From Paraburkholderia sp. Tr-20389 (GTDB lineage Bacteria > Pseudomonadota > Gammaproteobacteria > Burkholderiales > Burkholderiaceae): 64,000 nt of DNA. A program made the translations under genes and the position numbers. This document shows, in pieces, positions 43,866 to 59,438 of the stretch. How positions within the stretch are numbered: the stretch's first letter is position 1; every line of letters begins with the position of its first letter. The notes under the pieces are model-generated. The model was not told where the DNA came from and did no database searches. It was given only the letters and a program-made list of their open reading frames with translations. The stretch spans positions 1 to 64,000 of the forward strand of contig NZ_JAAGPD010000009.1 in assembly GCF_017104565.1 (NCBI RefSeq). The letters run 5' to 3'.

Positions 43866-43995
43866 GTTTTGGTTTGTTTGTTTGTTTGTCTGTCTGCGAC
43901 GTAGTCGCCATTCTTGCCTTCTCGGCGCGGGCTTCGCCTTTTGGTTTTTGCTCCGCGCTTTCGCTGGCATCCGCGCTTTCGTAGTGGTTGTTCAT

Positions 43996-44581
43996 GCGTT
44001 GCCCCTGTGCGGGGCGGCACCTACTTTTCTTTGCAGCGGCAAAGAAAAGTAGGCAAAAGAAAGCCGCTCACACCGCCAGCCCTTGTTCCTGCCTGCGGGC
44101 CCCCAACGGGTCCCGCACTCCACTCGGCAACACTTTGTTTTGCGCCCGTTGCCAGCGCCTTGAGCAGGCGCATCACCCACTCCAGTCACCCGCAGGCAGC
44201 CAGCGGCAGCGACTCGTCTGCGCCGCCCAGGTGGCAAACTGTGTGTAGCTTGTCGCACCATATGCGTTGGCGATCCTACGACACCGATCCGCTTTTCCGT
44301 CCGGAGTGATGCACGTCCGTCGCGATCGCCTACACACAGTTTGCCACCTGGGCGGCGGTGGACTTTCTGGTAGAGCAGGCCGTGACGTGGGAGCGTGGAA
44401 TGGGTGATGAGAATCCAAGAGCGCTGGCAACGAGCATGGATTAGCGCGCTGCCGCATGAAGCGTAAGAACTGTTGAGGGCCCGCAGGCAAACACACCGGC
44501 TGGCGGTGTGAGCCCGCTTTCTTTGCTTACTTTCTTTGCGGCGGCAAAGAAAGTAAGTGCCGCCCCGCACAGGGGCAACGC
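43996..44581. mobile_element. 586-bp composite palindromic element, copy A (MITE-like)
   Basis: Terminal inverted repeats of about 100 bp (43996-44099 and 44479-44581) run from GCGTTGCCCCTGTGCGGGGC inward. Each contains a hairpin: 44020-44053 (15-bp stem) and 44526-44557 (14-bp stem). A perfect 28-bp inverted repeat (44221-44248 with 44330-44357) brackets an 81-bp core. No protein gene lies inside. The outer flanks carry CGCTGGCATCCGCG-like units (43962-43975; CGCGGACGCCAGCG after the right end). Copy B at 58775-59359 is the same element in reverse. No transposase is present, so it would be non-autonomous. Confidence 0.8.
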
Positions 44582-44671
44582 CAGCAAACCAGAAGCAAAA
44601 CGCGGACGCCAGCGCTAAGTCAAGAACCGGAAGGAAAACCGCCGCGCCGCGAAAAGCACCAGCAGTAAACG

Positions 44672-45883
44672 TCAAGCAGCAGCAGGCGCATTCGGCGTTC
44701 GCGCATTGCGCAAATACAGCATGGTGGACAGACCGACAGCCGCCGCAGCGGCAACAGCTGCAAACAGAAACACCGATCCGTATCCAAACTCACCGGCAAT
44801 ATATCCGGCCAGCGGCCCAGTAATCCCGAGCGACAAATCGAGGAACACCGAATACGCCGACAACGCCGCGCCACGGCTGGCAGGCGGCACGAGCCCAACC
44901 GCCTCGACGCCCAGCGCCGGAAACACCAACGCAAATCCAAACCCCGTCAACGCAGCGCCCGCAAGCGCAACATGCGGCTCCGGCGCGAGCCACAACAACA
45001 GCAAGCCAGCGCATTCAAACGAAAACGAAGCAATCGCGACGCGAAACCCGCCATACGTCTTGATCGTGTTGGCAAACAGCAGACGCGCACCGATGAACAG
45101 CGTGCCGAACACCGTCAGCGACAACGCAGCATTAGGCCAATGATTGGCCGCATAGAACAGCGTGATGAACGTCGCAATCGAACCGAAGCCCGCCGAGCCG
45201 AGCGCGAGGCCAATGCCGTGCGGCAGCACGCGCGTGAACACGCTGCGATACGACATCCGCTCGCCATGCACGACCGGCACAGGCGCAATTCGCTGCGCGA
45301 GCGTATAGCCAATCGCCGCCAGTGCGATCACCACGACGCCAAGCGCGAAAAAGCCCACGCTGCGCGAAATCCATACGCCCACCGGCGCGCCGATCGCGAG
45401 CGCGCCATACGTGGCGATACCGTTCCACGAAATCACGCGCGCATTGTTCGTCGTGCCGACCCGTCCGATGCCCCACAGGATCGCACCCGTGCCGCACAGG
45501 CTTTCGCCGAAACCGAGCACCAGCCGGCTCAGCACCAGCAGGCTCAGGCTCAACGTCGGCCAGCGGCCCAGCAAGACGGCCAGCAACAACATAATGCCGC
45601 TCGCGCCGCAGCCGAGCAGACCAATCGTCACCGTCTTCTTCGGCCCGAGCGTGTCCGCCGAACGGCCGGCAATCGGACGCGACGCGAGCGTCGCGAAATA
45701 CTGGACGCTGATCGCCAGGCCCGCGATCACCGCGCTGTAGCCAAGGTCGTCATGGACGTAGCCAGGCAGCACGGCAAGCGGCACGCCGATCGTCAGATAA
45801 CAAAGAAACGTGAAGAAAACGACCGGAATGATCTGCAAAGTGGTCGCAAATTCGCTGCGCGGTGTAGCGGAGTCGGCGGACAT
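44672..45883 (-). CDS. MFS transporter, YhhS-like
   Basis: The 403-residue protein has twelve predicted helices, with [20 protein letters not shown] in helix 1, [20 protein letters not shown] as motif A and [20 protein letters not shown] in helix 4. This pattern matches the YhhS/arabinose-exporter group of the DHA1 superfamily. The transported compound is unknown. Its 3' end lies 90 bp from the right edge of repeat element A. It is divergent from xdhA with 385 bp between them. Confidence 0.88.
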
Positions 45884-46268
45884 GGGGAAAACGAGACTTG
45901 AATTTGGCGGGGAGCCATGATTTTCCCATGGAACCGATTCCCCTGCAGGCTCCGCTTAAAAATTTTCTCGTCGAAACAACGCGCTGAAACGGCCTTCTGA
46001 CGGCTTCCCATCAAATTTTTCGGCATCGCGTCGCCCGTACGAATCAATCCGATTGTCCTAATCTCGTTAAAAATTACCAAAACAGCTTGAAACGGACATC
46101 CAGATATAAGCCGAGCTACCGTCCGCTGTCTCAATTTATCGCTCCAGCTGTATGTCCCCCATGCGATCGGGCCTATGGGTTGTGAATATTGATGATGCTA
46201 CTTTTCGACCATCAGCCGCACCGTCCGCAGCCCCACGCGGACGCGAACAACCGAAACGAGCACGAGAC
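45884..46268. other. Divergent promoter region between the MFS gene and xdhABC
   Basis: This 385-bp region is AT-richer than its neighbours (45950-46150) and should hold both promoters. CGGAC at 46093 and GTCCG at 46122 form a loose inverted repeat, but no confident operator or gene is seen. Confidence 0.4.
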
Positions 46269-47786
46269 ATGAGCCAGCCGATCCGCTTCTACCATCGCAA
46301 CGCGATCCGTGAAATCACCGACGCGCCCGTCACCCGCACCGTTCTTCAATACCTGCGCGAAGACGCGCGCTGCACGGGCACCAAGGAAGGCTGCGCGGAA
46401 GGCGACTGCGGCGCGTGCACGGTCGTGGTCGGCGAGCGCAACGACGCGGGCGGCGTCAGCTTCAAGGCGGTCAACGCGTGCATCCAGTTTCTGCCGACGC
46501 TCGACGGCAAGGCGCTCTTCACCGTCGAAGACCTGCGCCAGCCGGACGGCAGCCTCCATCCCGTGCAGGAAGCGATGGTCGAATGCCACGGCTCGCAATG
46601 CGGCTTCTGCACGCCGGGCTTCGTGATGTCGATGTGGTCGATGTATGAAAAGCACGGCCACGAGCACGCCTGCAGAAACAAGACGGTGCCAGACCGCGCT
46701 GACATCGCCAACGCGCTGACGGGCAATCTGTGCCGCTGCACCGGCTATCGCCCGATCATCGACGCGGCCGAGCGCATGTTCCAGCTGCCCGCGCCGAAAG
46801 CGCCCGTCGACGTGAAGGCGCTCGCAGCGAAGCTTGCGACGCTCGAACGCGGCGAAACCTTCCACTACGAACACAACGGCCAGCAGTTCGACGCGCCGCG
46901 CACCGTCGCCGCGCTCGCGCAGATCAAGGCCGCCGCACCCGACACGCGGATTCTCGCGGGCAGCACCGACATCGGCCTGTGGGTCACGAAGATGATGCGC
47001 GACCTCGGTCATATCGTGTACGTCGGCCAGATCGCCGAAATGCAGAAGATCGACGTCACCGAAGACTGGATCGAAATCGGCGCCGGTGTCACCGTCGAGC
47101 GCGCGTACGCCGAACTCGCGAAGCAGTATCCCGAACTGACGGAGATGTGGCAGCGCTTCGCGTCGCTTCCCATCCGCAACGCGGGCACGCTCGGCGGCAA
47201 CGTGGCGAACGGCTCGCCCATCGGCGATTCGATGCCGGGCCTGATCGCGCTGGGCGCGCGGGTCGTGCTGCGCGGCGCCGACGTCGAACGCGAACTGGCG
47301 CTCGAAGACCTGTACCTCGCGTATCAGAAGAAGGACATGGCCGCGCACGAGTTCGTCGTCGGTCTGAAGGTGCCCGCGCGCAATGCGGCGCGTAAGCACT
47401 TCCAGTTCCGCACGTACAAGATTTCGAAGCGCTTCGACTCGGATATTTCCGCCGTATGCGCCGCGTTTTCGTTCATCGCCGACGGCGAGACGATCCGCGA
47501 GCCGCGCATCGCGTTCGGCGGGATGGCCGCGACGCCGAAGCGCGCAACGCACGCCGAAGCCGTGCTCGCCGACAACGACTGGCACGAAGCCACCGCGCAG
47601 ATCGCGATGCTCGCGCTCGCGAAGGACTATCAGCCGCTGTCCGACATGCGCGCGACCAGCGACTACCGCCTCGAAGCCGCGAAGAACACGCTGTACCGCT
47701 TCTGGCTCGAAACGCGCCCGAACAATCCGCTGCAAAAGAGCGCGCTCGATGTGCGCGCGGTGCTGGCGGCAGGCGCGGACGCCTGA
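46269..47786 (+). CDS. xdhA: Xanthine dehydrogenase small subunit (FeS/FAD)
   Basis: This subunit carries the two [2Fe-2S] clusters and FAD of xanthine dehydrogenase, which oxidises hypoxanthine and xanthine to urate. The 505-residue protein has the plant-type ferredoxin motif KEGCAEGDCGACTVVVGE, the second cluster CGFCTPGFVMSMWSMYE with GNLCRCTGYRPIIDA, and the FAD domain ILAGSTDIGLWVTKMMRDLG with LPIRNAGTLGGNVANGSPIG. The start MSQPIRFYHRN at 46269 gives the expected N-terminus. xdhB follows after 33 bp. Confidence 0.97.
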   Translation: MSQPIRFYHRNAIREITDAPVTRTVLQYLREDARCTGTKEGCAEGDCGACTVVVGERNDAGGVSFKAVNACIQFLPTLDGKALFTVEDLRQPDGSLHPVQEAMVECHGSQCGFCTPGFVMSMWSMYEKHGHEHACRNKTVPDRADIANALTGNLCRCTGYRPIIDAAERMFQLPAPKAPVDVKALAAKLATLERGETFHYEHNGQQFDAPRTVAALAQIKAAAPDTRILAGSTDIGLWVTKMMRDLGHIVYVGQIAEMQKIDVTEDWIEIGAGVTVERAYAELAKQYPELTEMWQRFASLPIRNAGTLGGNVANGSPIGDSMPGLIALGARVVLRGADVERELALEDLYLAYQKKDMAAHEFVVGLKVPARNAARKHFQFRTYKISKRFDSDISAVCAAFSFIADGETIREPRIAFGGMAATPKRATHAEAVLADNDWHEATAQIAMLALAKDYQPLSDMRATSDYRLEAAKNTLYRFWLETRPNNPLQKSALDVRAVLAAGADA

Positions 47787-47819
47787 TAGCGAACGGTACG
47801 AATACGGAGAACCAGCAGA

Positions 47820-50177
47820 ATGAACCAGCAAGCCGAACCGTTCCTGAAAGACGCGAAGGAACTCGCCGACTTTACGCAAGTACATGTGTCGCGCCCGCAC
47901 GAATCCGCGCATCTGCACGTGAGCGGCCGAGCCACCTACACCGACGACATCCCGGAACTCGCGGGCACGCTGCACGCCGCGCTCGGCCTGTCGCCGAAAG
48001 CGCACGCAAAGATCCTGTCGATGTCGTTCGACAAGGTGCGCGCGACGCCCGGCGTCGTCGCCGTCTTCACGGCTGACGACATTCCCGGCCACAACGATTG
48101 CGCGCCGATCGTCAAGGGCGACGATCCGATCCTCGCAGATGGGCTCGTCCAGTACGTCGGCCAGCCGATGTTCATCGTGGTCGCGACGTCGCACGACGCG
48201 GCGCGCCTCGGCGCACGTCGCGCGGATATCGAATTCGAGGAACTGCCCGCCGTGCTGACGGCGCAGCAGGCGCGCGCCGCGAACCAGAGCGTGATTCCGC
48301 CGATGAAGCTCGCACGTGGCGATGCCGCGTCGAAGCTCCAGCGCGCGGTGCATCGCGATGCGGGCGAAATGCTGCTCGGCGGCCAGGAGCAGTTCTATCT
48401 GGAAGGGCAGATCTCCTACGCCGTGCCGAAGGACGACGACGGCATGCACGTGCATTGTTCGACGCAGCACCCGACGGAAATGCAGCACCTCGTCGCGCAC
48501 ATGCTGAACGTGCATTCGCACAACGTGCTGGTCGAGTGCCGCCGCATGGGCGGCGGCTTCGGCGGCAAGGAATCGCAGTCGAGCATGTTCGCGTGCTGCG
48601 CGGCGCTGGCCGCATGGAAGCTGCTGTGTCCCGTCAAGCTGCGCCCGGACCGCGACGACGACATGATGGTCACGGGCAAGCGCCACGACTTCCACTACAC
48701 GTATGACGTCGGCTACGACGACGAAGGCGTGATCGAGGGCGTGTCCGTCGACATGACCTCGCGCTGCGGCTTTTCGGCCGACCTGTCCGGTCCTGTGATG
48801 ACGCGCGCCGTGTGCCACTTCGACAACGCGTACTTTCTGTCGGACGTCGCGATCGACGGCTTCTGCGGCAAGACGAACACGCAGTCGAACACCGCGTTTC
48901 GCGGCTTCGGCGGCCCGCAGGGTGCGTTCGCGATCGAATACATCATGGACGACATCGCGCGCTCGCTCGGCAAGGATTCGCTCGACGTGCGCCGCCGCAA
49001 CCTGTACGGCAAGACTGAGCGCAACCAGACGCCGTATGGACAGGTCGTCGAAGACAACGTAATTCACGAACTGATCGACGAACTCGAAGCGACGAGCGAC
49101 TATCGCCGGCGCCGTGCCGAAGTGTTCGAGTTCAACCGCAACAACGACGTGCTGAAGAAGGGCCTCGCGCTCACGCCCGTCAAGTTCGGCATCGCGTTCA
49201 ACGTCACGCACTTCAACCAGGCGGGCGCGCTCGTACATATCTATACCGATGGCTCGGTGCTCGTGAATCACGGCGGCACGGAAATGGGCCAGGGCTTGAA
49301 CACGAAGGTCGCGCAGGTGGTCGCGCATGAACTCGGCGTGAGCTTCAACCGCGTGCGCGTCACGGCGACGGATACGTCGAAGGTCGCGAATACGTCGGCG
49401 ACGGCGGCATCGACGGGCTCGGACCTGAACGGCAAGGCCGCGCAGGACGCCGCGCGTCAATTGCGCGAGCGCCTTGCCGCGTTCGCCGCCGACAAGTTCG
49501 GCGCGGGCGAAGTGACGGCGGCGGAGGTGCGCTTCGCGGGCGACTGCGCGCTGATCGGCGATGCTGTCGTGCCGTTCGAGGAAGTGATCGCGAAGGCGTA
49601 TCTCGCGCGCGTGCAACTGTGGTCCGATGGTTTCTACGCGACGCCGAAGCTCTACTGGGATCAGGCAAAGCTGCAAGGCCGGCCGTTCTTCTACTACTCG
49701 TACGGCGCGGCCGTGTCGGAAGTCGTGATCGACACGCTGACGGGAGAAATGCGCGTGCTGCGCGCCGACGCGCTGCACGATGTGGGCGCGTCGCTGAACC
49801 CGGCCATCGACGTGGGCCAGGTCGAAGGCGGCTTCATTCAGGGCATGGGCTGGCTCACGACGGAAGAACTGTGGTGGAACGCCGGCGGCAAGCTGATGAC
49901 GCACGCGCCGTCCACGTACAAGATTCCGACCGTCAACGACACGCCGCCCGATTTCCGCGTGCGTCTCTTCAAGAACCGCAACGCGGAGGACAGCATCCAT
50001 CGCTCGAAGGCGACGGGCGAGCCGCCGCTGCTGTTGCCGTTCTCGGTGTTCTTCGCGATTCGCGATGCCGTGGCCGCTGTCGGCGACTACAAGGTGAATC
50101 CACCGTTGAACGCGCCCGCGACGGGCGAAGAAATCCTCAAGGCGATTCGCGCGGTGCGCGCTTCGCGCTCGGCTTGA
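47820..50177 (+). CDS. xdhB: Xanthine dehydrogenase large subunit (molybdopterin-binding)
   Basis: This 785-residue subunit binds the molybdenum cofactor and substrate. Blocks seen are SAHLHVSGRATYTDDIPELA at the N-terminal hammerhead domain, CRRMGGGFGGKESQSSMFAC and NTAFRGFGGPQGAFAIEYIM with the substrate Arg. HGGTEMGQGLNTKVAQVVAH follows, and the catalytic Glu is in KATGEPPLLLPFSVFFAIRD. GGAG lies 10 nt before the ATG. It lies between xdhA and a short xdhC in one operon. Confidence 0.98.
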   Translation: MNQQAEPFLKDAKELADFTQVHVSRPHESAHLHVSGRATYTDDIPELAGTLHAALGLSPKAHAKILSMSFDKVRATPGVVAVFTADDIPGHNDCAPIVKGDDPILADGLVQYVGQPMFIVVATSHDAARLGARRADIEFEELPAVLTAQQARAANQSVIPPMKLARGDAASKLQRAVHRDAGEMLLGGQEQFYLEGQISYAVPKDDDGMHVHCSTQHPTEMQHLVAHMLNVHSHNVLVECRRMGGGFGGKESQSSMFACCAALAAWKLLCPVKLRPDRDDDMMVTGKRHDFHYTYDVGYDDEGVIEGVSVDMTSRCGFSADLSGPVMTRAVCHFDNAYFLSDVAIDGFCGKTNTQSNTAFRGFGGPQGAFAIEYIMDDIARSLGKDSLDVRRRNLYGKTERNQTPYGQVVEDNVIHELIDELEATSDYRRRRAEVFEFNRNNDVLKKGLALTPVKFGIAFNVTHFNQAGALVHIYTDGSVLVNHGGTEMGQGLNTKVAQVVAHELGVSFNRVRVTATDTSKVANTSATAASTGSDLNGKAAQDAARQLRERLAAFAADKFGAGEVTAAEVRFAGDCALIGDAVVPFEEVIAKAYLARVQLWSDGFYATPKLYWDQAKLQGRPFFYYSYGAAVSEVVIDTLTGEMRVLRADALHDVGASLNPAIDVGQVEGGFIQGMGWLTTEELWWNAGGKLMTHAPSTYKIPTVNDTPPDFRVRLFKNRNAEDSIHRSKATGEPPLLLPFSVFFAIRDAVAAVGDYKVNPPLNAPATGEEILKAIRAVRASRSA

Positions 50178-50199
50178 ACGTTATAAGAGGGCGCTCGCC

Positions 50200-50790
50200 A
50201 TGATGCACGTTCCGTCTTCTGTCGACATGCCCGTTCAGATCGGCCGGCGCAGCGGCCACGCGACGAAGCTACCGCCGCCGATGCACGTCGTGCTGTTCGG
50301 CGCGGGCCATGTCGGCCATGCGCTGATCTCGCTGCTCGGCCGGCTGCCGTGCGTGGTGCAATGGGTCGACGAACGCGACGAGCTGTTCCCCGACGAAGTG
50401 CCCGCGAACGTGCAGGTCGAGGCGACCGACACGCCCGCCGCGATCGTCGACGAAGCGCCCGCCGGCGCGTACTTCCTCGTGATGACGCACAACCACGCGC
50501 TCGATTTCGCGCTCGCCGAGCGCATCATGCGGCGGCGCGATTTCACGTACTTCGGGATGATCGGTTCGAAGACGAAGCGCGTGAAGTTCGAGCGTCGTCT
50601 GATCGATCGTGGCGTCGATCCGCAGCGTCTGTTCGAGATGACCTGTCCGATCGGCGTGCCGGGAATCGTCGACAAGGCGCCGCCGTCGATTGCCGTCGCC
50701 GTCTGCGCGGAACTGCTGCAGGTGCGTTCGCAGCAGATTTCGCTCGCCGATCTCGCATCCGCTCAGCAGGCGGACTGCGTCGGCGCGTGA
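50200..50790 (+). CDS. xdhC: XdhC-type accessory protein lacking the N-terminal XdhC/CoxI domain
   Basis: XdhC binds the molybdenum cofactor and inserts it into XdhB. This 196-residue product has only the C-terminal Rossmann part: MHVVLFGAGHVGHALISLLG, CVVQWVDERDELFPDEVP, YFLVMTHNHALDFALAERIM and YFGMIGSKTKRVKFERRLID. XdhC proteins usually run near 250-350 residues, with an N-terminal XdhC/CoxI domain before this part; here only about 27 residues precede it. GAGGG lies 8 nt before the ATG and xdhB ends 22 bp upstream, leaving no room for the missing domain. It may be reduced but functional, or decayed. Confidence 0.85.
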   Translation: MMHVPSSVDMPVQIGRRSGHATKLPPPMHVVLFGAGHVGHALISLLGRLPCVVQWVDERDELFPDEVPANVQVEATDTPAAIVDEAPAGAYFLVMTHNHALDFALAERIMRRRDFTYFGMIGSKTKRVKFERRLIDRGVDPQRLFEMTCPIGVPGIVDKAPPSIAVAVCAELLQVRSQQISLADLASAQQADCVGA

Positions 50791-50791
50791 T

Positions 50792-51820
50792 TCACTGACC
50801 GATTCCTCCAGCGGGCGCAGCGGGCACACTCGCGGCGCCCGTTTTTTTCTCCGCCTTTTCTTCACGTGCCGCCGCCCGCGCGCGCCGCGGCTTATTTGCC
50901 ACCAGCATCTCCGACACCTGCGCCATCAGGCTGCGCAGCCATGCGATATCGCTTGGCCGGTCCGGTTGCGGATGCCACATCTGATAGCACTTGATGCGCG
51001 GAAACGGAATCGGCACATCGACCACGGCCAGCGGCAACATCTCCGCATAGTGCAGTGCGAAGCGGCGTGTCGTCGTGAAGATCAGATCCGATTGCAGCAG
51101 CACCTGCGGTACGAGACCGAAATAGGGCAGCGTCGCGACGATACGGCGCGACGCCTGCGCGCGCGCGAAACCCGTGTCGATGGCGCCGCCGCGCGCGCCG
51201 CTGTAGTGCGCGGGCGCGAGATGCGGCGCGGCGAGATAGGCGTCGCGCGTGAGCGGCGCCTTTGCCAGCGGATGATCGGCGCGCATCATGCACACGACGG
51301 TATCGGAGAACAGGTCGCTGCGCTCGAAGCGCACGTCGGGCTTCGGCCAGTTGCCGATCACGAGATCGAGTTCGCCCGCATCGAGCGCGGAGGTGTGATC
51401 GAAGAGCGGCCCGAGCGACTCGATCTCGAGCCGCGCATGCGGCGCCGCCTCGCGGAACTGCGCGATCACGGTCGGCATGAAGAAATCGTTCAGATAATCG
51501 GGCGCGGCGATGCGGAACGTGCGGCGCGAGCGCGCCGGATCGAAGTCGCCGTGCGGCGTCGCGACGAAGTCGACATCGCGCAGCACTTTCTGCGCGGCCG
51601 CCAGCAGCGATTCGCCGTATTCCGTCGGCACCATGCCTGACTTGCCGCGCACGAGGATCGGATCGTTCAGCGTTTCGCGCAGCTTGCGCAGCGCGGTGCT
51701 GATGGCGGGCTGCGTCTGGTTCAGCCGCAGTGCCGTCTGCGTGACGCTGCGCTCGACGAGCAGCGTGCGCAGCACGCGCACGAGCCAGATATCGAGTGAA
51801 GCGGCGGTGTCGTCATCCAT
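50792..51820 (-). CDS. LysR family transcriptional regulator
   Basis: The 342-residue protein has the LysR DNA-binding domain LRTLLVERSVTQTALRLNQT followed by QPAISTALRKLRETLNDPIL, and an effector domain with RTFRIAAPDYLNDFFMPTVI. The C-terminal tail is unusually basic and Ala-rich (RRARAAAREEKAEKKTG). It converges on xdhC, so it may control xdhABC from a distance or an unlinked target. ATG at 51820 is preferred to GTG 51922; neither has a clear ribosome site. Confidence 0.88.
   Translation of the reverse strand: MDDDTAASLDIWLVRVLRTLLVERSVTQTALRLNQTQPAISTALRKLRETLNDPILVRGKSGMVPTEYGESLLAAAQKVLRDVDFVATPHGDFDPARSRRTFRIAAPDYLNDFFMPTVIAQFREAAPHARLEIESLGPLFDHTSALDAGELDLVIGNWPKPDVRFERSDLFSDTVVCMMRADHPLAKAPLTRDAYLAAPHLAPAHYSGARGGAIDTGFARAQASRRIVATLPYFGLVPQVLLQSDLIFTTTRRFALHYAEMLPLAVVDVPIPFPRIKCYQMWHPQPDRPSDIAWLRSLMAQVSEMLVANKPRRARAAAREEKAEKKTGAASVPAAPAGGIGQ
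50812..50848 (+). terminator. Intrinsic terminator of xdhABC
   Basis: A 7-bp stem CGGGCGC/GCGCCCG around a 16-nt loop is followed by seven T, 22 bp after the xdhC stop. It overlaps the 3' end of the convergent LysR gene. Confidence 0.65.
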
Positions 51821-52053
51821 GAATCGGCGGGGCGGGGGAGGCCCGTTGAAGGCATTTCGAGTGCTTGTGTCAGGCGGTGCATCGTGCGTGCGCGGCGTCT
51901 CGTAGTCGACGCCGTGCCGCACGCGTACGAAGCCATAACCTTATGCCCGTTTAACCGGCGCGGGCATAGTGCGCGCCCTATGCCGGGCATCACGGCCGGC
52001 GATCCGCTCATGCTTTGCGCGCCGCGCCGCCGCCGTGCGACGCGGGAAGAGAC

Positions 52054-52698
52054 TCACGCCTGCGCCAGACCCTTCGGCAGCGACGTGATCCGCTTCACTT
52101 CCTTCGATTCGAGCCAGTTCGGCGTGCGCGCGCAATAGAGCACCATGGGCAGCGCGTCTTCACCCCAGAACAACTGCTTGTTCAGCCAGAACGTCGGCAC
52201 GCCGAACACGCCGATCGCGATCGCGTCAGCGCCGTTGCGCATCATTTGTGCGCGTGTCGCTTCGCGTTCGATCAGTTCCTGGCCGTCCGGCACCTTCAGG
52301 CGTTCGCACAGCGCGGCGAAGCCTTCGTCGGTCGACGGATCGCGGCCGTCGCGCCAGATGAAGCGGAATATCTCGCGCACCGTGTGCAGGTCGGAGCCGA
52401 GCGCGACGGACAGTAGCATCGGCCTCGTCGAATCGAACGGATGCGAGGGTGGCATGCGGAACGGAATGCCCAGTTGCTCCGCGCGAAACAGCGCGTACCG
52501 GTACGTGAAAATGCGTTTCGCGGGCACGTCGTAGGCGACCCGCTGGCCCCAGTGGCGATACAGGTCGTTCAGCAGCACCGGCGTCAGCACGAACGGCAGT
52601 TCAGGCCATTTATCGTGCTGTTCGAGCAGCAGATACGAGAACGGTGAGACAAAGTCGTAAAACCACAACGGCTGCGTGGCGTCGATGCCATCGGTCAT
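52054..52698 (-). CDS. DsbA-family protein, 2-hydroxychromene-2-carboxylate isomerase-like
   Basis: The 214-residue thioredoxin-fold protein has WFYDFVSPFSYLLLEQHDKW, where the Ser of SPFSY replaces the DsbA CxxC site as in HCCA isomerases (kappa glutathione transferase group). The closing motif is FGVPTFWLNKQLFWGEDALP. HCCA isomerase works in naphthalene breakdown, but many relatives in proteobacteria have unknown substrates, and no aromatic-ring genes are beside it. A glutathione-dependent isomerase is the best general call. Confidence 0.82.
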   Translation of the reverse strand: MTDGIDATQPLWFYDFVSPFSYLLLEQHDKWPELPFVLTPVLLNDLYRHWGQRVAYDVPAKRIFTYRYALFRAEQLGIPFRMPPSHPFDSTRPMLLSVALGSDLHTVREIFRFIWRDGRDPSTDEGFAALCERLKVPDGQELIEREATRAQMMRNGADAIAIGVFGVPTFWLNKQLFWGEDALPMVLYCARTPNWLESKEVKRITSLPKGLAQA

Positions 52699-52884
52699 GA
52701 TGTCTCCCGGTTGCCTGAATCGGCGGGCTGTCGGCGATGCCGCGCGTCAGCCCATTCTGATTGTTTCGATCTTACGCGGAGCAAGCCCCGTGCGCATCAT
52801 TTGACGAAATGCCGTTGCGGCATTGTTTGTTGCGCGGACGCTCGGAGGGTGCGTCATGACGCACCCGGTCTCGACAGGGCGGTC

Positions 52885-54399
52885 CTAGCGGTTCTCTCCG
52901 CCTTCGCGGTCTTCGTGGCCTTCGTTCGCCGCGTGGCCCTCGTGCATGGCCGCGCGCGCTTCGGCGCGGCCGACGGCGCCTGCCTCCGACGAACCCGGCG
53001 TTCCCGCGGCGCCCCCGGCGTCACGCGTCGCAGCCGCTTCCGACGCGCGCGCGAGGCGCGTCCGGACGAAGCCGATATGCTCGCGCAGCACGTAGAACTG
53101 ATCCGCATACGCAAGCGGCATCTTCAGTCCGTTCACCGATTCCTCGATCTTGTCGAGTCTCACGATGAGCGCCTCGCGCTCGGCCGCCGAGGTGTCGCTG
53201 AGCGCCTCGCGCTCGATCGCGATCAGCGCGCCGTACCAGCGGTAGATGCGAGATTTCACACGCCACGCATACAGCGACGGCACGAGCCGCAGCCCCGGTA
53301 TCAGCACGACGATGATCGGGACGAGGACGACCAGCAGCCGGTCCGCGAGACTCGCGAGCCAGAACGGCAGCATGCGATAGAGGAAGCCCTTGCCCGACTT
53401 GTAGTAGCGGGCGGCGTCGTCGCTGATCGTGAAATCATGCGCGAGCGGCGCGGGGAACTCCCCCGCCTTCTGCAGCGCCGTCGCCTTGCCATGCACTTCG
53501 CGCGCGGCTTCGATCAGCAGATCGGACAGCGCGGGATGCAGCGAGTCGCGCGCGACCAGTTCGGCTGTGGGCGCGATCATGTGCAGCGCGGTCGACGGCA
53601 GGTTCTTGCCGAGATCGAACGAGCCCATCGGCATGTCGAGTTGCGTCAGATACGGGAAGCGTTTGGCATACGCGCTCGCCTGGGTGAAGTCGTAGAACTG
53701 CACGCCCGCCGTGCGATACAGCTTGCCCATTACGGGCGGCTGCGCGGAATCGCCCGTGAGGATCGCCGCATCGATCTTGCCTTCCGTCAGCGCGCGGGCG
53801 GCGTCGTCGCCCGACAGCGGCAACAGTTTCGTCGTACCGTCGGGCGTGATCCCGTTCGCTTTCAGCAATTGCAGCGCGAGTTCGCGCGTGCCGCTGCCTT
53901 CGACGCCGATCGCGATGCGCTTGCCCTTGAACTCCGACAGCAGCGTGACCATCGGCCCGCGATAAAAGATCGCGACGGGCACATAGGCGACGCTGCCGAG
54001 CGACATCAGATCGTCCGTCGGTTTGGACGGCGCGATGCCGTCCTGCACGAAGCCAACATCGACGTTCGCGTGCGGGTCGGCCAGACGACGGTAGTTGTCG
54101 AGCGAGCCTTCCGTCTCCAGCACGTTGAGCGTGATGCGGTTGCGAGCGAGGATTTCCTTGTACTTCTGCGCCGCGACCCAGAAGGTGCTGCCTTTGGGAC
54201 CGGCCGCCATCGTCAGCGTATCGGGCGGGGCCGGCTGGATCAGGCGCACGGCGATATAGATCGCGATGGCGCTGATGATCAGGATCGGTCCGAACGAGAT
54301 GGCGAGATCGCGCCACGAAATCGCCACGAAACGGGCGACGAGCTTGGGCGGCTTGTGTTCAGCCGTGCGTTCCGGCCGACGTCCTTCGGAAGGCTTCAT
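52885..54399 (-). CDS. TAXI-family TRAP transporter solute-binding protein, membrane-anchored
   Basis: The 504-residue protein starts with a cytosolic leader and one helix (ISFGPILIISAIAIYIAVRL near residues 35-55). The TAXI binding domain follows (TLTMAAGPKGSTFWVAAQKY; VGFVQDGIAPSKPTDDLMSL; GKRIAIGVEGSGTRELALQL). A second hydrophobic stretch LLVVLVPIIVVLIPGLRLVP and a charged, low-complexity C-terminus then follow. Unlike secreted TAXI proteins it is anchored at both ends. No TRAP permease genes are adjacent, so its partner or signalling role is unknown. Confidence 0.85.
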   Translation of the reverse strand: MKPSEGRRPERTAEHKPPKLVARFVAISWRDLAISFGPILIISAIAIYIAVRLIQPAPPDTLTMAAGPKGSTFWVAAQKYKEILARNRITLNVLETEGSLDNYRRLADPHANVDVGFVQDGIAPSKPTDDLMSLGSVAYVPVAIFYRGPMVTLLSEFKGKRIAIGVEGSGTRELALQLLKANGITPDGTTKLLPLSGDDAARALTEGKIDAAILTGDSAQPPVMGKLYRTAGVQFYDFTQASAYAKRFPYLTQLDMPMGSFDLGKNLPSTALHMIAPTAELVARDSLHPALSDLLIEAAREVHGKATALQKAGEFPAPLAHDFTISDDAARYYKSGKGFLYRMLPFWLASLADRLLVVLVPIIVVLIPGLRLVPSLYAWRVKSRIYRWYGALIAIEREALSDTSAAEREALIVRLDKIEESVNGLKMPLAYADQFYVLREHIGFVRTRLARASEAAATRDAGGAAGTPGSSEAGAVGRAEARAAMHEGHAANEGHEDREGGENR

Positions 54400-54940
54400 G
54401 GGAATGCGGGGCGGTCGGATGAATGATTTCGCGCCGATGGTACATGAGATTGACGGCGCGGCGGCACGTCGGGCGGACCGACGGCGCCCTAAACGCGTAA
54501 CAAAAGGTGACCAGACGGGCGATCGTGAAAGGCTTGGGCCGTTTGCAGAATGTGGGAAGCCGGCGTCCTGGGCCGGGCGAGGTATCCGCCGAACCGTCGA
54601 CGGAAACCGTGCGTCACGCGCGATATCCTTTGCAGAACTTGCGCGGCTAGATTACATTGGCATCGCTGCCGCGAATCGACGTTGGCGCAGCGCGACCCGG
54701 CCAGACTCAAGAGCACAGGGCACGCTGCCAACCGCGCGGCGCACGGCAAGCGTCATGCATCGTCGCGCAAGGTGGATCGCGCCGGCCGTCACCACTTCCA
54801 ATGCCTCTCGCAGACCGTGACAACGCTCCAGGCTCGCCATGCCTCGTTGCGCCTTCGTGCGCGCGCGCAGGCGGGCCGTCCGCAGTCGTAACCAAGCCGC
54901 AAGTGAAACGCGGTCCAAACCAAAGCAAAAAGGAGAAGTT
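54400..54940. other. Non-coding region upstream of the BON-domain gene
   Basis: This 541-bp stretch lies between the divergent TAXI and BON genes. Open frames inside it lack ribosome sites and recognisable products. Apart from one promoter-like site at 54630-54658, nothing else can be supported. Confidence 0.4.
54630..54658 (+). promoter_or_regulatory. Candidate promoter of the BON-domain gene
   Basis: TTGCAG (54630-54635) and TACATT (54653-54658) are spaced by 17 bp on the plus strand. The implied leader to the BON-gene ATG is about 275 nt. Similarity to consensus is moderate. Confidence 0.35.
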
Positions 54941-55294
54941 ATGAAATCGGTCGATTTTCTGAAGGCAGTGGGTGGTGTTGTCGCAATGGTCGTCGCATGC
55001 CACACGTATGCCCAGGCAAGCGACTCCACGGCAACCGGCACGACGGCAACCGCGCCCGCCGCGAACTCGAAGGCCGCCAAGAAGGAAAACCGCACACTCG
55101 GCAAGAAGGTCCGCTCAGCGCTCACGAAGGGTGGCGTCGACGTGTCGAAGGTCAACGTGCGCGCCCACGGCGGCGCTATTTCGCTGACGGGCACCGCGCC
55201 TGACAACGACCAGATCCAGAAGGCCGGCGAAATCGCGAAGGGCGTCGAAGGCGTCACTTCGGTGTCGAACAAGATCAACGTCAAGCAGCAGTAA
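54941..55294 (+). CDS. Periplasmic BON-domain protein
   Basis: The 117-residue precursor has a signal peptide (KSVDFLKAVGGVVAMVVACH, cleaved near TYAQA) and a low-complexity Ala/Thr linker. One BON domain follows, from about residue 50: LGKKVRSALTKGGVDVSKVN, GAISLTGTAPDNDQIQKAGE and GVEGVTSVSNKINV. BON domains bind phospholipid or envelope surfaces (as in OsmY), so a periplasmic envelope-stress role is likely. AGGAG lies 5 nt before the ATG. A strong terminator follows 120 bp downstream; the gene appears monocistronic. Confidence 0.9.
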   Translation: MKSVDFLKAVGGVVAMVVACHTYAQASDSTATGTTATAPAANSKAAKKENRTLGKKVRSALTKGGVDVSKVNVRAHGGAISLTGTAPDNDQIQKAGEIAKGVEGVTSVSNKINVKQQ

Positions 55295-55661
55295 GCGGCG
55301 AAGGCCGCGCCGGCGCAGGGCGGATCGAATGATCCGGCGCGTGCGGCAACGGCCAGCCGGTCGCCGCCGGACGGCACGCTGCAGATCGCGGCGTGCCTGG
55401 CGGTCGACATGACAAGCGGGCTCCCGTCCGAGACGGGAGCCCGCTTCATTTTGCATGCCGTTGCGCTTCAGGACGAGCGATATAAAGCGGCGGCCCGTGT
55501 GACGAGCGCGTGACAACCATGCACGCTCAGCGCGCATGCGTGCAGCCGATTGTGGCAGCCACCGGCCAAACGCGACGGACCTTCGCTCTTGCACGCCGTG
55601 ACATACTTTTTACCCGCCGGGTGCGGTACTGTGAAGCTATCGATCTTCGCCGGGGACCGCT
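55295..55661. other. Intergenic region with a terminator, otherwise empty
   Basis: The 367-bp region holds the terminator at 55414-55452. From there to the next small gene no further feature is supported. Confidence 0.4.
55414..55452 (+). terminator. Intrinsic terminator after the BON-domain gene
   Basis: A 15-bp perfect stem AAGCGGGCTCCCGTC/GACGGGAGCCCGCTT with loop CGA is followed by CATTTT. Confidence 0.85.
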
Positions 55662-55916
55662 ATGGACACGACCCGTTTCACTTACACCGATTTGCCCATC
55701 GGCGAGCGCGCGGCGTTCGAGCTGGTGTGCGCGCGGCATGGTTTCGCGCCGGTGCATTTCGACATCAGCGCAAGCGACGATCCCGATGACAACTCGCATC
55801 AATCGCGTCTTCTGACGATACGGCGCGGCGGCTGGGCGCAGTCGTATCACGAGGATACGGCGGGGCATTGGGTGCGTCAGTTCGAGACCGATCTGAACTG
55901 CCGCTTCTTCAAGTAA
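55662..55916 (+). CDS. Hypothetical small protein
   Basis: The 84-residue open frame has GGGGA 5 nt before its ATG. It reads MDTTRFTYTDLPIGERAAFE and contains LVCARHGFAPVHFDISASDD, RRGGWAQSYHEDTAGHWVRQ and FETDLNCRFFK. It is soluble, somewhat acidic, with two Cys, and has no membrane segment. I do not recognise a family. Codon use resembles neighbouring genes. It stands alone between the BON gene and a convergent permease. Confidence 0.6.
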   Translation: MDTTRFTYTDLPIGERAAFELVCARHGFAPVHFDISASDDPDDNSHQSRLLTIRRGGWAQSYHEDTAGHWVRQFETDLNCRFFK

Positions 55917-55965
55917 CCGTCGATGTGATCGCCCGCACGCGGCGGACGTGTGCGCGCGTTCGCGC

Positions 55966-56754
55966 TCAGGCAATCACCAGCCTCACGCCGACGAGCGTCA
56001 ACGTGGCGGCGAGGAGGTTGCGCAGCAGCTTTTCGGGCGCCTTTGTCGACAGGTAGCTGCCGAGCACGATGCCCGGCAGCGAGCCGACCAGGAGCGAGAT
56101 CAGCATTGACCAGTCGATAGAGCCGAGCAGCCAGTGGCCCGCGCCCGCGAGCAGCGTGAGCGGCACGGCGTGCGCGATATCGGAGCCGACGATGCGCGTG
56201 GTCGGCAGCAGCGGATAGAGCAGCAGGAGCACCGTGACGCCGATCGCGCCTGCGCCGACCGACGTCAGCGACACCAGCACCCCGAGGACGGCGCCCGTCA
56301 GCATGGTCAGCGCGAGCGTGCTGCCCTGGCCCGTCCCGCGCGTGCGCGACGCCGCGAACGCGGTCAGCTGCGGCCGGAACACCAGCGCAACGGCCGTGAT
56401 GAGCAGCGCCACGCCGAGCACGACGGAGATCAGATGGCCGCCGCGCGAGGACGTCATGCCGTAGCGGTGCAACAGGATCAGCGTGATCGTGGCGGCGGGC
56501 ACACTGCCCGCGGCGAGACGCAACGTCACCTGCCAGTCGATCGACCCCTTCACCCCATGTACGAGCGTGCCCGTCGCCTTGGTCGCGGCGGCGTACAGCA
56601 GATCCGTGCCGACGGCCGTCGCGGGATGGACGTTGAAGAGCAGCACGAGGATCGGCGTCATCAGCGAGCCGCCGCCGACGCCCGTCAGTCCGACCAGAAA
56701 GCCGACGAAGAGACCGGACGCGGAATACAGGAGATCGATATGGGGAAGTGCCAT
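55966..56754 (-). CDS. TSUP family (TauE/SafE-like) permease
   Basis: The 262-residue protein has about eight membrane helices with the duplicated TSUP pattern: SGLFVGFLVGLTGVGGGSLM at the start and GVLVSLTSVGAGAIGVTVLL in the middle. Both halves carry the Gly-rich GVGGG / SVGAG turn. Members move sulfite, sulfoacetate or other organosulfur anions. The substrate is unknown, and no sulfur-metabolism gene is beside it. It is divergent from rarD. Confidence 0.88.
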   Translation of the reverse strand: MALPHIDLLYSASGLFVGFLVGLTGVGGGSLMTPILVLLFNVHPATAVGTDLLYAAATKATGTLVHGVKGSIDWQVTLRLAAGSVPAATITLILLHRYGMTSSRGGHLISVVLGVALLITAVALVFRPQLTAFAASRTRGTGQGSTLALTMLTGAVLGVLVSLTSVGAGAIGVTVLLLLYPLLPTTRIVGSDIAHAVPLTLLAGAGHWLLGSIDWSMLISLLVGSLPGIVLGSYLSTKAPEKLLRNLLAATLTLVGVRLVIA

Positions 56755-57096
56755 TGCGCGGACCGCGGACGGTCGTAAAAGGTTGCGGGCAAGCTTGCCG
56801 GTACTGTCGCCAGAGCGCCGCGCCCGGGCTTGCGCGTCGGGCGAACGACGCTGAGCGGCGCGGCGAAAGACCGCTATTGTCGCAAAACCGGCGCTGCCGC
56901 GTACGAATCCGAGGCGATACCGTTATCGGGGTTGTCCCGACAGTCGGCTTACAATAACTGTTTCGGGCGCCACGGTGTGCCGGACAGCGCGCTCATGGCG
57001 ACGTCCGCCAGGCTGGCTGCGTCTTGCTCCCGCCACTTCGGCTGGTGCTTTCCCCGTGTGTTTTTCGCGCGTTTTTCCATCCGCAGACCGATAAAA
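56755..57096. other. Divergent promoter region between the TSUP and rarD genes
   Basis: This 342-bp intergenic stretch should contain both promoters. A TACAAT hexamer near 56952 could be a -10 box for rarD, but no well-spaced -35 was found. No gene is seen. Confidence 0.35.
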
Positions 57097-57972
57097 ATGA
57101 ATCCCGGCGTCGCCTACGCATTGCTCGCGTTCACTCTGTGGGGACTGTTTCCCGTCTACTTCAAGTCGCTGCATCAGATTTCACCCGTGGAGATGCTCGC
57201 GCACCGGATGGTGTGGTCGATGCTGTTTCTCTTCATCGTGTTGACGGTGCGGCAGCAGTGGCGGTGGCTTGCGCCCGTGCTGCGCGATCGGCGGCTGCTG
57301 GCGCGCTTCGCCGCGAGTGCGCTGTTGCTGTCGACGAACTGGGGCATCTATATCTGGGCCGTCAACGCGGGGCATATCGTCGAGGCGAGCCTTGGTTACT
57401 TCGTCAATCCGCTGATCAATGTGCTGTTCGGCCTTGCGTTTCTCGGCGAGCGTCTGCGGCGCGTGCAGTGGGTGTCCGTCGCGATCGCCACGTCGGGTGT
57501 GCTGTGGCTCACCTGGCAAAACGGCCATCCGCCGTGGATCAGCCTTGCGCTTGCCTTCAGCTTTGCGGGTTATGGCTTGTTGCGCAAGACGGCGCAACTC
57601 GGCGCGCTCGAAGGGCTGACACTCGAAACGGTGCTGCTGTTTCCTGTGGCGGTGCTGTATCTGTTCTTCGCGTCGTCGCACGGGGAGAGCGGGTTTGGCG
57701 CGGCGTCCGTCGGGGTGAAGGTATTGCTTGCGCTCGCGGGACCGATCACGGCCGTGCCGCTGCTGCTGTTCGCGGCGGGTGCGCGGCGCATTCCGCTGTC
57801 GATGCTCGGCTTGATTCAGTACGTGACGCCTTCGCTGCAACTGCTGATTGGCGTGCTGATCTATCGCGAGCCGTTCGGGCAGACGCAGCTGATCGGCTAT
57901 GGCGCGATCTGGATTGCGCTCGCGCTGTATTCGCTCGATGGCTTGTGGCGCGCGCGTTTTGCGCGCGCCTAG
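57097..57972 (+). CDS. rarD: RarD, EamA-family permease
   Basis: The 291-residue protein has ten helices, two EamA repeats and the RarD hallmark start NPGVAYALLAFTLWGLFPVY, with SPVEMLAHRMVWSMLFLFIV, LLSTNWGIYIWAVNAGHIVE and SLGYFVNPLINVLFGLAFL. RarD proteins are inner-membrane transporters of uncertain substrate, originally linked to chloramphenicol sensitivity. ATG 57097 gives the standard N-terminus; the open frame extends upstream to 56830 without support. The 3' end carries a GC-rich hairpin without a T tract. Confidence 0.93.
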   Translation: MNPGVAYALLAFTLWGLFPVYFKSLHQISPVEMLAHRMVWSMLFLFIVLTVRQQWRWLAPVLRDRRLLARFAASALLLSTNWGIYIWAVNAGHIVEASLGYFVNPLINVLFGLAFLGERLRRVQWVSVAIATSGVLWLTWQNGHPPWISLALAFSFAGYGLLRKTAQLGALEGLTLETVLLFPVAVLYLFFASSHGESGFGAASVGVKVLLALAGPITAVPLLLFAAGARRIPLSMLGLIQYVTPSLQLLIGVLIYREPFGQTQLIGYGAIWIALALYSLDGLWRARFARA

Positions 57973-57982
57973 GGGCCGATGA

Positions 57983-58639
57983 TCAGATCGCGCGTTTGAT
58001 CTCGACGACGCCGAACGCGGCGAGCGCGAAGCCTGCGATACGGTCGATGATCACCCGCAGTTTGTGACCGATGGCATGCCGCGCGAGCGACACGGCTGTC
58101 ACGAGGAAGCACCACCACGCGATCGATCCGCAGAACACGCCGAACACCGTCGTGAGTGCGACGCCCGACGAAAACGGCCCGCGCGGCGCGAGGGTCGTGA
58201 AGAGGGCCGCGAACATGATGACCGTCTGCGGATTGGTGAGGGTGAGGAGCAACGCGCTCGCGAATGCTTTTAGGGCCCCTGCGTGGCCGATGGCTGCGAG
58301 TTTGCTGTTTTTGTCGCTGTTGCCATTGCCATTACTGCCGTTGTCGGCGGGGACTTTTTGCAGCATCGTGCGGATGCCGAGATACAGCAGGAAGAGTCCT
58401 GCGATGATGTGCAGCGGTTTGTCGTAGGCAAGCATGAATTGCGACACACTGACGAGGCCTAGTGCTGCCACCAGGCCGTAGATCGCGTCGCCGCCCGCGA
58501 TGCCCAGGCCGATCGCCAGCCCCGCGCGTGGGCCTTCCGTTAGCGTTCGGCGAATGCATAGCATGCCCATCGGGCCGACCGGGGCGGCCACTGCGAGGCC
58601 TACGCCTGCCGCTGTCAGAAATAAGGTGGTGCTGAACAT
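57983..58639 (-). CDS. LysE/RhtB-family amino acid exporter
   Basis: The 218-residue protein has six helices and the family signature LAVAAPVGPMGMLCIRRTL followed by GPRAGLAIGLGIAGGDAIYG. There is a hydrophilic Asn/Gly/Lys loop (PADNGSNGNGNSDKNSKLAA) in the middle, then LTLTNPQTVIMFAALF. It probably exports an amino acid or its derivative. AAGGA lies 7 nt before the ATG at 58639. The frame extended to 58750 would run into the flanking repeats of element B and is not favoured. Its promoter region abuts that element. Confidence 0.9.
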   Translation of the reverse strand: MFSTTLFLTAAGVGLAVAAPVGPMGMLCIRRTLTEGPRAGLAIGLGIAGGDAIYGLVAALGLVSVSQFMLAYDKPLHIIAGLFLLYLGIRTMLQKVPADNGSNGNGNSDKNSKLAAIGHAGALKAFASALLLTLTNPQTVIMFAALFTTLAPRGPFSSGVALTTVFGVFCGSIAWWCFLVTAVSLARHAIGHKLRVIIDRIAGFALAAFGVVEIKRAI

Positions 58640-58716
58640 TTGGGGTTCCTTTGGTTTTTTGTCTGCGACGCTGGTTGGGTATTTTGCCTTTTTTGCTCGT
58701 CGCTGCGGTTTTGTTT

Positions 58717-58757
58717 CGCTGGCATCCGCGTTGTGTTTCCGCGCTGGCATCCGCGTT
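58717..58757 (+). repeat. Two units of a short repeat flanking element B on the left
   Basis: CGCTGGCATCCGCGTT occurs at 58717-58732 and 58742-58757. The same unit appears once outside element A (43962-43975) and in reverse beyond both right ends, so it belongs to the outer border of the element family. Confidence 0.7.
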
Positions 58758-58774
58758 TTGCTTCTGGTTTGCTG

Positions 58775-59359
58775 GCGTTGCCCCTGTGCGGGGCGGCACT
58801 TACTTTCTTTGCCGCCGCAAAGAAAGTAAGCAAAGAAAGCGGGCTCACACCGCCAGTGCTAGTTGTTGCCTGCGGGCCCTCAACAGTTCTTACGCTTCAT
58901 GCGGCAGCGCGCTAATCCATGCTCGTTGCCAGCGCTCCTGGATTCTCATCACCCACTTCAAACTCCCGGGTTACAGACCACGTTACCAGAAGTCCACGGC
59001 CGCCCAGGTGGCAAACTCTGTGTAGGCCGTCGCGATCGAAGTGCACCACTCCGGACTGAAAAGCGGGATCGGTGTCGTAGAAGCGCGAACGCATATGGCG
59101 CGACAACCTACACACAGTTTGCCACCTGGGCGGCGCAAACGGACCGCCGCCGCTGGCCGCGCTATGGGTGGCTGGAGTGGGGGATGCACCTGTTCAAAGC
59201 GTTGGCTACGGGCGCAAAACGATGAGTTGCCGTGTGAAGTGTGGGACCCGTTGGGGGCCCGCAGGCAGGGACACGGGCTGGCGGTGTTAGCCCGCTTTCT
59301 TTGCTTACTTTCTTTGCGGCGGCAAAGAAAGTAAGTGCCGCCCCGCACAGGGGCAACGC
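58775..59359. mobile_element. 585-bp composite palindromic element, copy B (MITE-like)
   Basis: This is the reverse-orientation counterpart of copy A. Terminal inverted repeats are 58775-58877 and 59257-59359, with hairpins CTTACTTTCTTTGC/GCAAAGAAAGTAAG at 58799-58830 and 59304-59335. The central 26-bp inverted repeat (59001-59026 with 59107-59132) has one mismatch. Its left arm (58878-59000) matches the reverse complement of copy A's right arm closely, and its right arm matches copy A's left arm more loosely. No open frame is conserved between copies. Confidence 0.8.
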
Positions 59360-59372
59360 CAGCAAACCAGAG

Positions 59373-59438
59373 ACAAACCGCGGATGCCCGCGAAACAAAC
59401 CGCGGAGGCCCGCGAAACAAACCGCGGATGCCAGCAAC
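59373..59438 (+). repeat. Three 22-bp tandem repeats at the right edge of element B
   Basis: ACAAACCGCGGATGCCCGCG plus AA repeats at 59373-59394, 59395-59416 (GATG to GAGG) and 59417-59438 (ending CAGCAAC). The units are the reverse form of the CGCTGGCATCCGCG border unit on the other side. Confidence 0.8.

Follow-up and report, generated by a model that had tools for sequence, protein, structure and literature searches.

The window analysed here is a stretch of 64,000 nucleotides (nt) from Paraburkholderia sp. Tr-20389 (contig NZ_JAAGPD010000009.1, positions 1 to 64,000), and it carries two copies, A and B, of a palindromic element. Copy A (586 bp, 43996-44581, plus strand) lies between the 3' ends of two convergent genes, a class-V aminotransferase-like gene on the plus strand and a major facilitator superfamily (MFS) gene on the minus strand. 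Copy B (585 bp, 58775-59359, minus strand) is in the opposite orientation to A and is flanked by two minus-strand genes, with the 3' end of an AcrB-type gene on one side and the 5' end of a LysE gene on the other. The two copies align best in opposite orientation, with inverted matches of 251 nt at 91%, 146 nt at 84%, 95 nt at 88% and 77 nt at 88%. A sequence-only reading of the window, made without database searches, had described two units of 585/586 bp built as terminal inverted repeat, arm, central inverted repeat and core, followed by the same parts in reverse order, and this layout is borne out. The terminal inverted repeats of A are 97% identical over 32 nt, and its central inverted repeat is, as had been noted, perfect over 28 nt (44221-44248, plus strand; 44330-44357, minus strand). 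The central repeat of B, noted with one mismatch over 26 bp, is present but measures 36 nt at 92% (58999-59034, plus; 59099-59134, minus).

Each end of the element consists of a 23-base tip and an end module. The left tip of A (43998-44020, plus) is composed of GTT, the hairpin GCCCC-TGTGC-GGGGC and GGCAC, and the other tips are the inverted right tip of A (44557-44579, minus), the left tip of B (58777-58799, plus) and the right tip of B (59335-59357, minus). The end module is a pyrimidine/purine hairpin accompanied by a further purine run, a mirror image of the first, and by bases able to pair with its loop, in the order, on the inward strand, of Y stem, loop, R1, R2 and loop-pairing bases. 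The left module of A (44020-44070, plus) is of the 4A type, with loop CAGCGG and loop-pairing bases GCCGCT, and the three others are of the 3A type: the right module of A (44510-44557, minus; loop CCGCCG, loop-pairing bases GCGG), the left module of B (58799-58846, plus) and the right module of B (59288-59335, minus). The repeat extends further than had first been described, since in A it continues outward to GCTGGCATCCGCG and its complement and spans about 650 bp (43963-44613). This outer repeat is found, with at most one mismatch, at 43963-43975 (plus) to the left of A and at 44601-44613 (minus) to its right, as two units at 58718-58755 (plus) to the left of B, and again at 59379-59435 (minus) to the right of B. 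Beyond the outer repeats, the flanks appear by eye as T-rich and A-rich.

A and B are members of a family of about 125 copies in the Tr-20389 genome, and are thus not confined to the two places seen in the window. When the 8,997,065 bases of the genome (129 contigs) are scanned, the tip is found, with at most three mismatches, 129 times in forward and 125 times in reverse orientation, as against 0 for a reversed control. Tips are also found solitary or in a 72-bp tandem array; one array of tip and outer repeat with this period adjoins a full copy (L003:1215-1503). Among the best 40 of 170 BLAST candidates in this genome, 39 are near full length, and one covers 534 of the 586 bases because an insertion interrupts it. 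Sixty-six of the approximately 125 copies were fetched from the BLAST hits and the pattern matches listed, with a span of 440-600 bp, two copies bearing an insertion sequence (IS) and lone tips being excluded and L070 and L071 being removed as duplicates; 65 of them measure 581-590 bp and one 512 bp. Their lengths modulo 3 are evenly spread (24/22/20), a full-length open frame is found in at most 2 of 66, and none of the six open reading frames (ORFs) within or across A and B reaches the cut-off of a Pfam family. The earlier claim that no protein gene lies inside therefore holds as far as tested, and the family is non-coding as far as examined. Outside Tr-20389, the tip is present in 100 of 398 genomes of the host's family, belonging to 8 of 25 genera, and its count within the host's genus ranges from 0 to 190 per strand, the low counts being possibly due to chance as the control reached 1 in some genomes. 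Matching plasmid records belong to Paraburkholderia (10), Burkholderia (7, tips only, 12% of the query) and Caballeronia (5), and no match is found in 50,697 phage records.

The end module is highly constrained within the family. Of the 132 ends of the fetched copies, 127 fit a strict definition and 5 do not, and the 127 fall into two compensating types that are never mixed, namely CTTACTTTCTTTG/CAAAGAAAGTAAG/CAAAGAAA (82 ends) and CCTACTTTTCTTTG/CAAAGAAAAGTAGG/CAAAAGAAA (45 ends). Loop and flank pair over at least 4 bases in all 127 strict ends. The two IS-bearing copies, L032 (contig C18) and L067 (C90), contain within an end module, at the same place and in the same orientation, an insertion of about 1.2 kb with a DDE transposase (Pfam DDE_Tnp_1), which we take to be of the IS5 family; element and insertion together are about 90% alike between the two. 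As the transposase within the element is flanked by TTA, the IS has entered the element, which is its target and not its remnant. The possibility of a known IS remnant was thus rejected.

To get insights into the history of the copies, their sites were compared among relatives. The genes adjoining copy A are conserved across the genus, with matches at 1e-60 in 97 of 98 genomes, and comparison of 8 genomes, Tr-20389 included, shows that the orthologous sites are common to several species, in which they are full, scarred or empty. Site A is full in Tr-20389, G398, G384 and G420, holds a 464-465-bp variant in G451 and is reduced to a short hairpin in G408, G419 and G441. Site B is full in Tr-20389, G398, G408, G384, G419 and G420, variant in G451 and short in G441, while site C is full in G398, G384, G419 and G420 and empty in Tr-20389, G408, G451 and G441, the empty form measuring about 95-165 bp and lacking a tip. 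G420 carries the full element at sites D and E, both of which are empty in Tr-20389 and G408, and at site G Tr-20389 has a truncated copy beside the full one. Orientation is flipped at some orthologous sites, namely at site F (one of four Tr-20389-G420 pairs) and at site B in G408. The short form, GTTGCCCC-GCACA-GGGGCAAC, corresponds to what a deletion between its GCCCC (or GGGGC) repeats would leave of the full form; in 20 genomes queried, exact short forms are found in G398 (4), G451 (3), G408 (1) and G322 (5), and none in Tr-20389.

Copies at the same site in different species do not stand out by their likeness. The orthologous pairs between Tr-20389 and G420 are 77.7 (A), 79.9 (B), 76.6 (F) and 76.8% (G) identical, with a mean of 77.8% (n=4), as compared to 77.9% for the 38 non-orthologous pairs. 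Within a single genome, the mean is 84.2% in Tr-20389 (15 pairs, range 76.2-89.0, or 84-89 without an odd 567-bp copy at 190644) and 86.6% in G420 (21 pairs). Fourteen other Tr-20389 copies have a mutual mean of 86.3% and are 73-76% identical to 10 copies from G398, G384, G419 and G420. In a maximum-likelihood tree of 23 copies, those of G451, of G420, and of Tr-20389 together with G408 are supported as groups (100/99 or more), and no grouping by site is observed. These comparisons show that the copies of Tr-20389 and of G420 have been homogenised within each genome, in a process of concerted evolution.

A similar likeness is observed between the two arms of one palindrome in genus g12, where matches to the Rfam family RF02421 are outward pairs up to 4 kb apart. 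Six g12 loci, two of them short, were opened from the list of these matches; five of the six adjoin the same aminotransferase-like ORF, and their end modules lie 0.57 to 3.9 kb apart. In five long-arm copies at one site, left and right arms are 91.8-97.5% identical (mean 95.0), as compared to a mean of 89.8% and a maximum of 94.0% for arms of different genomes (40 comparisons). In all five copies the two arms are more alike than any comparison of that copy with another genome, and left arms do not resemble the left arms of other genomes any more than the right ones. The arms of a copy are therefore kept alike, over distances of up to 2.7 kb. Loci L371-L374 of this genus have near-identical arms around 2-4 kb of other DNA, beside the aminotransferase-like ORF. 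Four g12 elements with 2.1-3.9 kb between their modules were inspected for an autonomous form: three have no gene-like ORF of more than 112 amino acids, and the fourth has, by eye, two transposase-like ORFs between its arms, which look like insertions.

If sibling sequence were copied by host recombination, this would account for the shared sites, the within-genome likeness, the likeness of arms, the flips and the scars. Our preferred reading, which we hold at a little less than even confidence, is that A and B represent an interspersed palindrome that is non-coding and non-autonomous, present in high copy number and structured at its ends, and whose likeness is maintained by copying between siblings and between the arms of a copy. 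Copies and arms could be refreshed by gene conversion from sibling sequence, perhaps begun by extrusion of the long palindrome into a hairpin that would be cut by host nucleases such as SbcCD, and the hairpin scar could be what remains once slippage between the GCCCC (or GGGGC) repeats of 5 bp has removed the rest. The end module might be a signal recognised by some factor, either as RNA or as single-stranded DNA.

Several observations weigh against this reading. Cutting and conversion are steps that we infer, and a very similar picture could arise from recurrent insertion and loss. The contrast between genomes is small for G398, G384 and G419, whose cross values (80-85%, the range of the G398-G384 pairs) nearly equal the within-genome ones (81-89%, with 81-86% in G398 and 87-89% in G384). 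The two G451 copies are merely 77% alike, and the tree does not resolve the G384, G398 and G419 copies as clades, although they stand side by side. In the 66 Tr-20389 copies, arm alleles are combined almost at random (0.777 vs 0.775 shuffled), which fits recombination among copies but is compatible with independent mutation as well. Covariation between arms is weak in this family, with 104 paired double changes vs a mean of 79 and a maximum of 99 in 100 column shuffles; pairwise counts of compensatory changes were set aside as evidence, since rate differences between sites inflate the covariation that they suggest, and the column shuffle is the fairer test. Outside the family, the end modules found are mostly single, and 116 loci contain 19 pairs that face inward within 900 nt. 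Finally, certain genomes lack the element altogether at site C, D or E, so that true insertion has occurred by some further route.

Such empty sites, together with inverted ends and a copy number that in a single genus varies between 0 and about 190, could alternatively point to a classical miniature inverted-repeat transposable element (MITE), moved by a transposase that binds its ends and whose autonomous partner has been lost or has diverged too far. The sequence-only reading had proposed a MITE-type unit, and the family does resemble MITEs in being small and non-coding, with inverted ends and many copies. Two further marks of MITEs were looked for, target duplication and an autonomous partner. 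At site D, the G420 element, judged by eye, directly follows a hairpin-plus-T-run that is common to G420, Tr-20389 and G408, and no target duplication is visible by eye at this single clean site, whose flanks have diverged, clean empty sites being few. As to the partner, no transposase, RAYT (REP-associated tyrosine transposase), reverse transcriptase or DUF559 partner was found in the genomes and loci searched, nor any full-length relative with a transposase sharing the terminal repeats. No protein recurs across unrelated organisms beside the end motif in 80 of 120 loci, where the recurrent clusters are ORFs of Xanthomonadaceae loci, ORFs of Stenotrophomonas pairs and a putative ATP-binding cassette (ABC)-type ATPase in 3 loci. 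A DUF559 endonuclease, a candidate seen elsewhere between inverted BoxC motifs, was not found in Tr-20389. Moreover, the transposase of the two IS-bearing copies sits inside the element between other ends, and the transposase-like ORFs of the one g12 element sit between its arms. A classical MITE is thus unlikely, without being a negligible alternative.

The short hairpin tips, their single and tandem occurrences and the intergenic location are also reminiscent of repetitive extragenic palindromes (REPs) and their hairpin-forming doublets (REPINs), spread by a RAYT transposase. REP, REPIN and bacterial interspersed mosaic elements (BIMEs) are intergenic palindromes, many of them near gene 3' ends, as is the element described here, which nevertheless differs from them by its end structure and by being far longer than a REPIN. 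The Tr-20389 genome has a single Y1_Tnp (PF01797) gene, with no tip within 1.5 kb and thus no sign of a RAYT partner. This gene (L072, C12:60223-60513), beside a gene that we presume to be glutamate-synthase-like, seems by eye to have lost its HxH motif. We therefore disfavour spread by a RAYT as highly improbable. A retroelement has also to be considered, in which a 3'-tagged RNA would be reverse transcribed into a complementary DNA (cDNA) that snaps back and primes itself, yielding a palindrome with the tag at both ends. This would suit ends common to families with unrelated arms, and near-perfect palindromes such as L155 (90% paired) or the g12 elements (arms 92-97.5%). However, no RVT_1 gene is found in Tr-20389, with its approximately 125 copies, or in the high-copy genomes G357, G124 and G030; reverse transcriptase was rejected as a partner, and a non-autonomous retroelement appears very improbable.

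Another possibility, raised in part when the sequence-only reading suggested a structured transcript or terminator module, is that the element acts as a bidirectional 3'-end RNA, each end forming on one strand an H-type pseudoknot whose stem takes up the extra run in a triple helix, so as to protect or end the transcripts of both neighbours. The gene context speaks for it: the neighbours of the 66 copies are convergent in 32 cases, co-directional in 28, divergent in 5 and undetermined in 1, and in 60 of 66 at least one neighbouring gene points into the element, as compared to 17 convergent, 92 co-directional and 46 divergent among 155 element-free gaps of 60-900 nt in the window and seven related regions. 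These counts come from a GC-frame ORF caller that is sometimes wrong and labelled copy A as co-directional. Terminator-like sites cluster in the copies, 29 being found in 43800-59700 vs 15.7 (standard deviation 4.3) in shuffles. These include, in the inward sense, each of the four tips of A and B and, in the outward sense, the inner end hairpins, with interrupted T runs. Two catalogued RNAs, RF02421 and RF01731, read outward. Yet around 91 modules across phyla no gene-orientation bias is found (29/29/17/16, with a crude caller), site D retains its own terminator-like hairpin upstream of the element, and five of six g12 loci adjoin an aminotransferase-like ORF that reads away, the element being upstream in four of the five.

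The strand of such an RNA is also ambiguous. Stem mismatches, counted with a filter for an A-rich second run and a further demand for mirror likeness, point to the outward strand (14 G.U, 1 A.C and 7 others, representing fewer independent events than counted), whereas mismatches in the loop pairs favour the inward strand, 8 to 3. The wobble counts thus point to opposite strands and favour neither RNA nor single-stranded DNA, and arm mismatches are even in the 66 copies (962 G.U vs 976 A.C). The lower fold energy of the outward strand in 132 of 132 Tr-20389 arms was dropped as an argument, as the preference vanishes with dinucleotide shuffles. On balance, a 3'-end RNA is an improbable but not negligible alternative to the copying of an interspersed palindrome by host recombination.

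Whatever the function of the end, comparison shows that the predicted end module is conserved and covaries beyond the family, in distant bacteria. The motif occurs outside the family in 15 of 369 class genomes, Tr-20389 included. A scan with an exact pattern, in which loop and flank were left free, gives, among the matches listed, Stenotrophomonas, Xanthomonas, Lysobacter, Dyella, Silvimonas, Burkholderia, Cupriavidus, Pasteurellaceae, Psychromonas, Methylomonas, Pectinatus and Mucilaginibacter, as well as metagenome-assembled genomes (MAGs) labelled Desulfobacterales, Selenomonadales, Clostridia, Ruminococcus and Spirochaetia; these organisms are a sample, and many are MAGs that possibly hold foreign contigs. 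In 67 unique loop/flank combinations (from 84 occurrences in 80 of 120 loci), the mean pairing run is 4.24 vs 3.10 in shuffles (maximum 3.42 of 1000), and 48 of the 67 pair over at least 4 bases. Mirror symmetry between R2 and R1 was measured in 42 distinct pairs, obtained from 243 modules by retaining the 152 with an A-rich second run and then 84 unique ones, and it reaches 0.838 vs 0.768 in shuffles (maximum 0.804 of 1000). The A-rich filter, used here as well as for the stem mismatches and for the TwoAYGGAY modules described below, favours adenine by construction; the mirror-test shuffles permute the filtered set, and the TwoAYGGAY-module shuffles passed the same filter. The ends thus display a Y-R-R three-block pattern, by their sequence and mirror symmetry, for which a triplex is a candidate only. 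In a single case, G597 (L286, L307), the purine arm has a T that faces a C in R2, equivalent to a G on the other strand, and G over a T-A pair is the favoured partner in pyrimidine-motif triplexes. Across families, the stretch between the ends varies widely, yet, as far as sequence comparison shows, it remains palindromic.

The claim that the element is undescribed stands for the whole, of which no description was found in the literature searched, where few subscription journals are covered, but not for its pieces, which are present in Rfam as separate RNAs. RF02421 (Bp1_684, the Burkholderia small RNA (sRNA) Bp1_Cand684_SIPHT) is catalogued as a single 113-nt sRNA; judging by its matches, it is an end of this larger palindrome, covering tip and outer repeat. 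In copy A it reads outward at 44547-44659 (plus; 28.8 bits vs a gathering threshold of 44, E 3e-4) and, from the other end, at 43945-44030 (minus; 25 bits, E 3.1e-3). The Tr-20389 genome gives 18 matches at E<=0.001 among 28 candidates scored, at least one being above the cut-off (47 bits), and both ends of the element are matched in B. seminalis and B. latens. RF02421 occurs in 32 of 120 genomes of the host's family, 26 above the cut-off, and often forms outward pairs, whose members are separated by 0.5-0.8 kb in many genomes and by 2-4 kb in some g12 genomes.

The second RNA, RF01731 (TwoAYGGAY), has no assigned function in the available text of PMC2864571 and PMC11661157. It fills both arms of a Psychromonas element (L183) that has the same ends, and some of its matches in G609 and G720 are inverted pairs; its arms are unlike those of the Tr-20389 element, and it was not found in Tr-20389, where 7 of 268 candidates were scored under strict filters. 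It occurs in 21 of 350 class genomes, 13 above the cut-off. An A-rich end module, with other letters, lies within 500 nt in 11 of 30 TwoAYGGAY loci, 5 of them as inward pairs, and 19 loci have none by the strict test; a looser search gives 22 of 30, many without an A-rich run, and the stricter count is preferred. Module density is 16 per 60,000 nt beside TwoAYGGAY (the 1,000 nt per locus being a set window), 3 per 115,958 nt further off and 0 in 263,937 nt of shuffled sequence. The L183 element also contains, between its TwoAYGGAY arms, a 94-amino-acid ORF without Pfam match (L183:238-519). A third RNA, RF02902 (AaHKsRNA22), one small piece named as an sRNA, adjoins the motif in Aggregatibacter (L178) and Mannheimia (L223). 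The window further contains a ZMP/ZTP riboswitch (RF01750) at 16845-16959 (61.5 bits).

A parallel is found in the BoxC/PIT/TM_ECO repeats of E. coli, for which the available text of Holder 2015 (PMC4666352) describes a pyrimidine arm, a purine arm and a second purine run, a patchy copy number, and inverted pairs that decay to hairpins. These features resemble the Y-R-R blocks, the patchy copy number and the decaying inverted pairs observed here. The (G/C-rich) BoxC consensus CCCTCNCCC N3-6 GGGNGAGGG N3 GGGNGAGGG is present in 79 of 369 class genomes, with 0 matches in Tr-20389, and unlike our module it gives no loop-pairing signal (1.92 vs 2.10 shuffled, 24 loop/flank combinations). In L328 and L332, from two genomes, inverted BoxC-type motifs enclose a DUF559 endonuclease-like gene, which has a related ORF in L322 and is a possible carrier gene of BoxC elements.

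One attractive, if rather doubtful, possibility is that the elements bearing this end belong to a cross-phylum superfamily of palindromic mobile elements, defined by a loop-locked triple-helix end, of which TwoAYGGAY, Bp1_684 and AaHKsRNA22 would be pieces. The end would then be an RNA triple-helix pseudoknot read by a conserved host factor, and the palindrome would offer it to transcripts arriving from both sides. More broadly, the comparison brings together under one testable element type what had been scattered and unexplained, namely an sRNA candidate, an orphan structured RNA and an anonymous repeat. The approximately 125 dispersed non-coding copies of Tr-20389, together with the arms of one palindrome, represent a natural case of concerted evolution, and the end module, which covaries, is a candidate natural triplex-pseudoknot.

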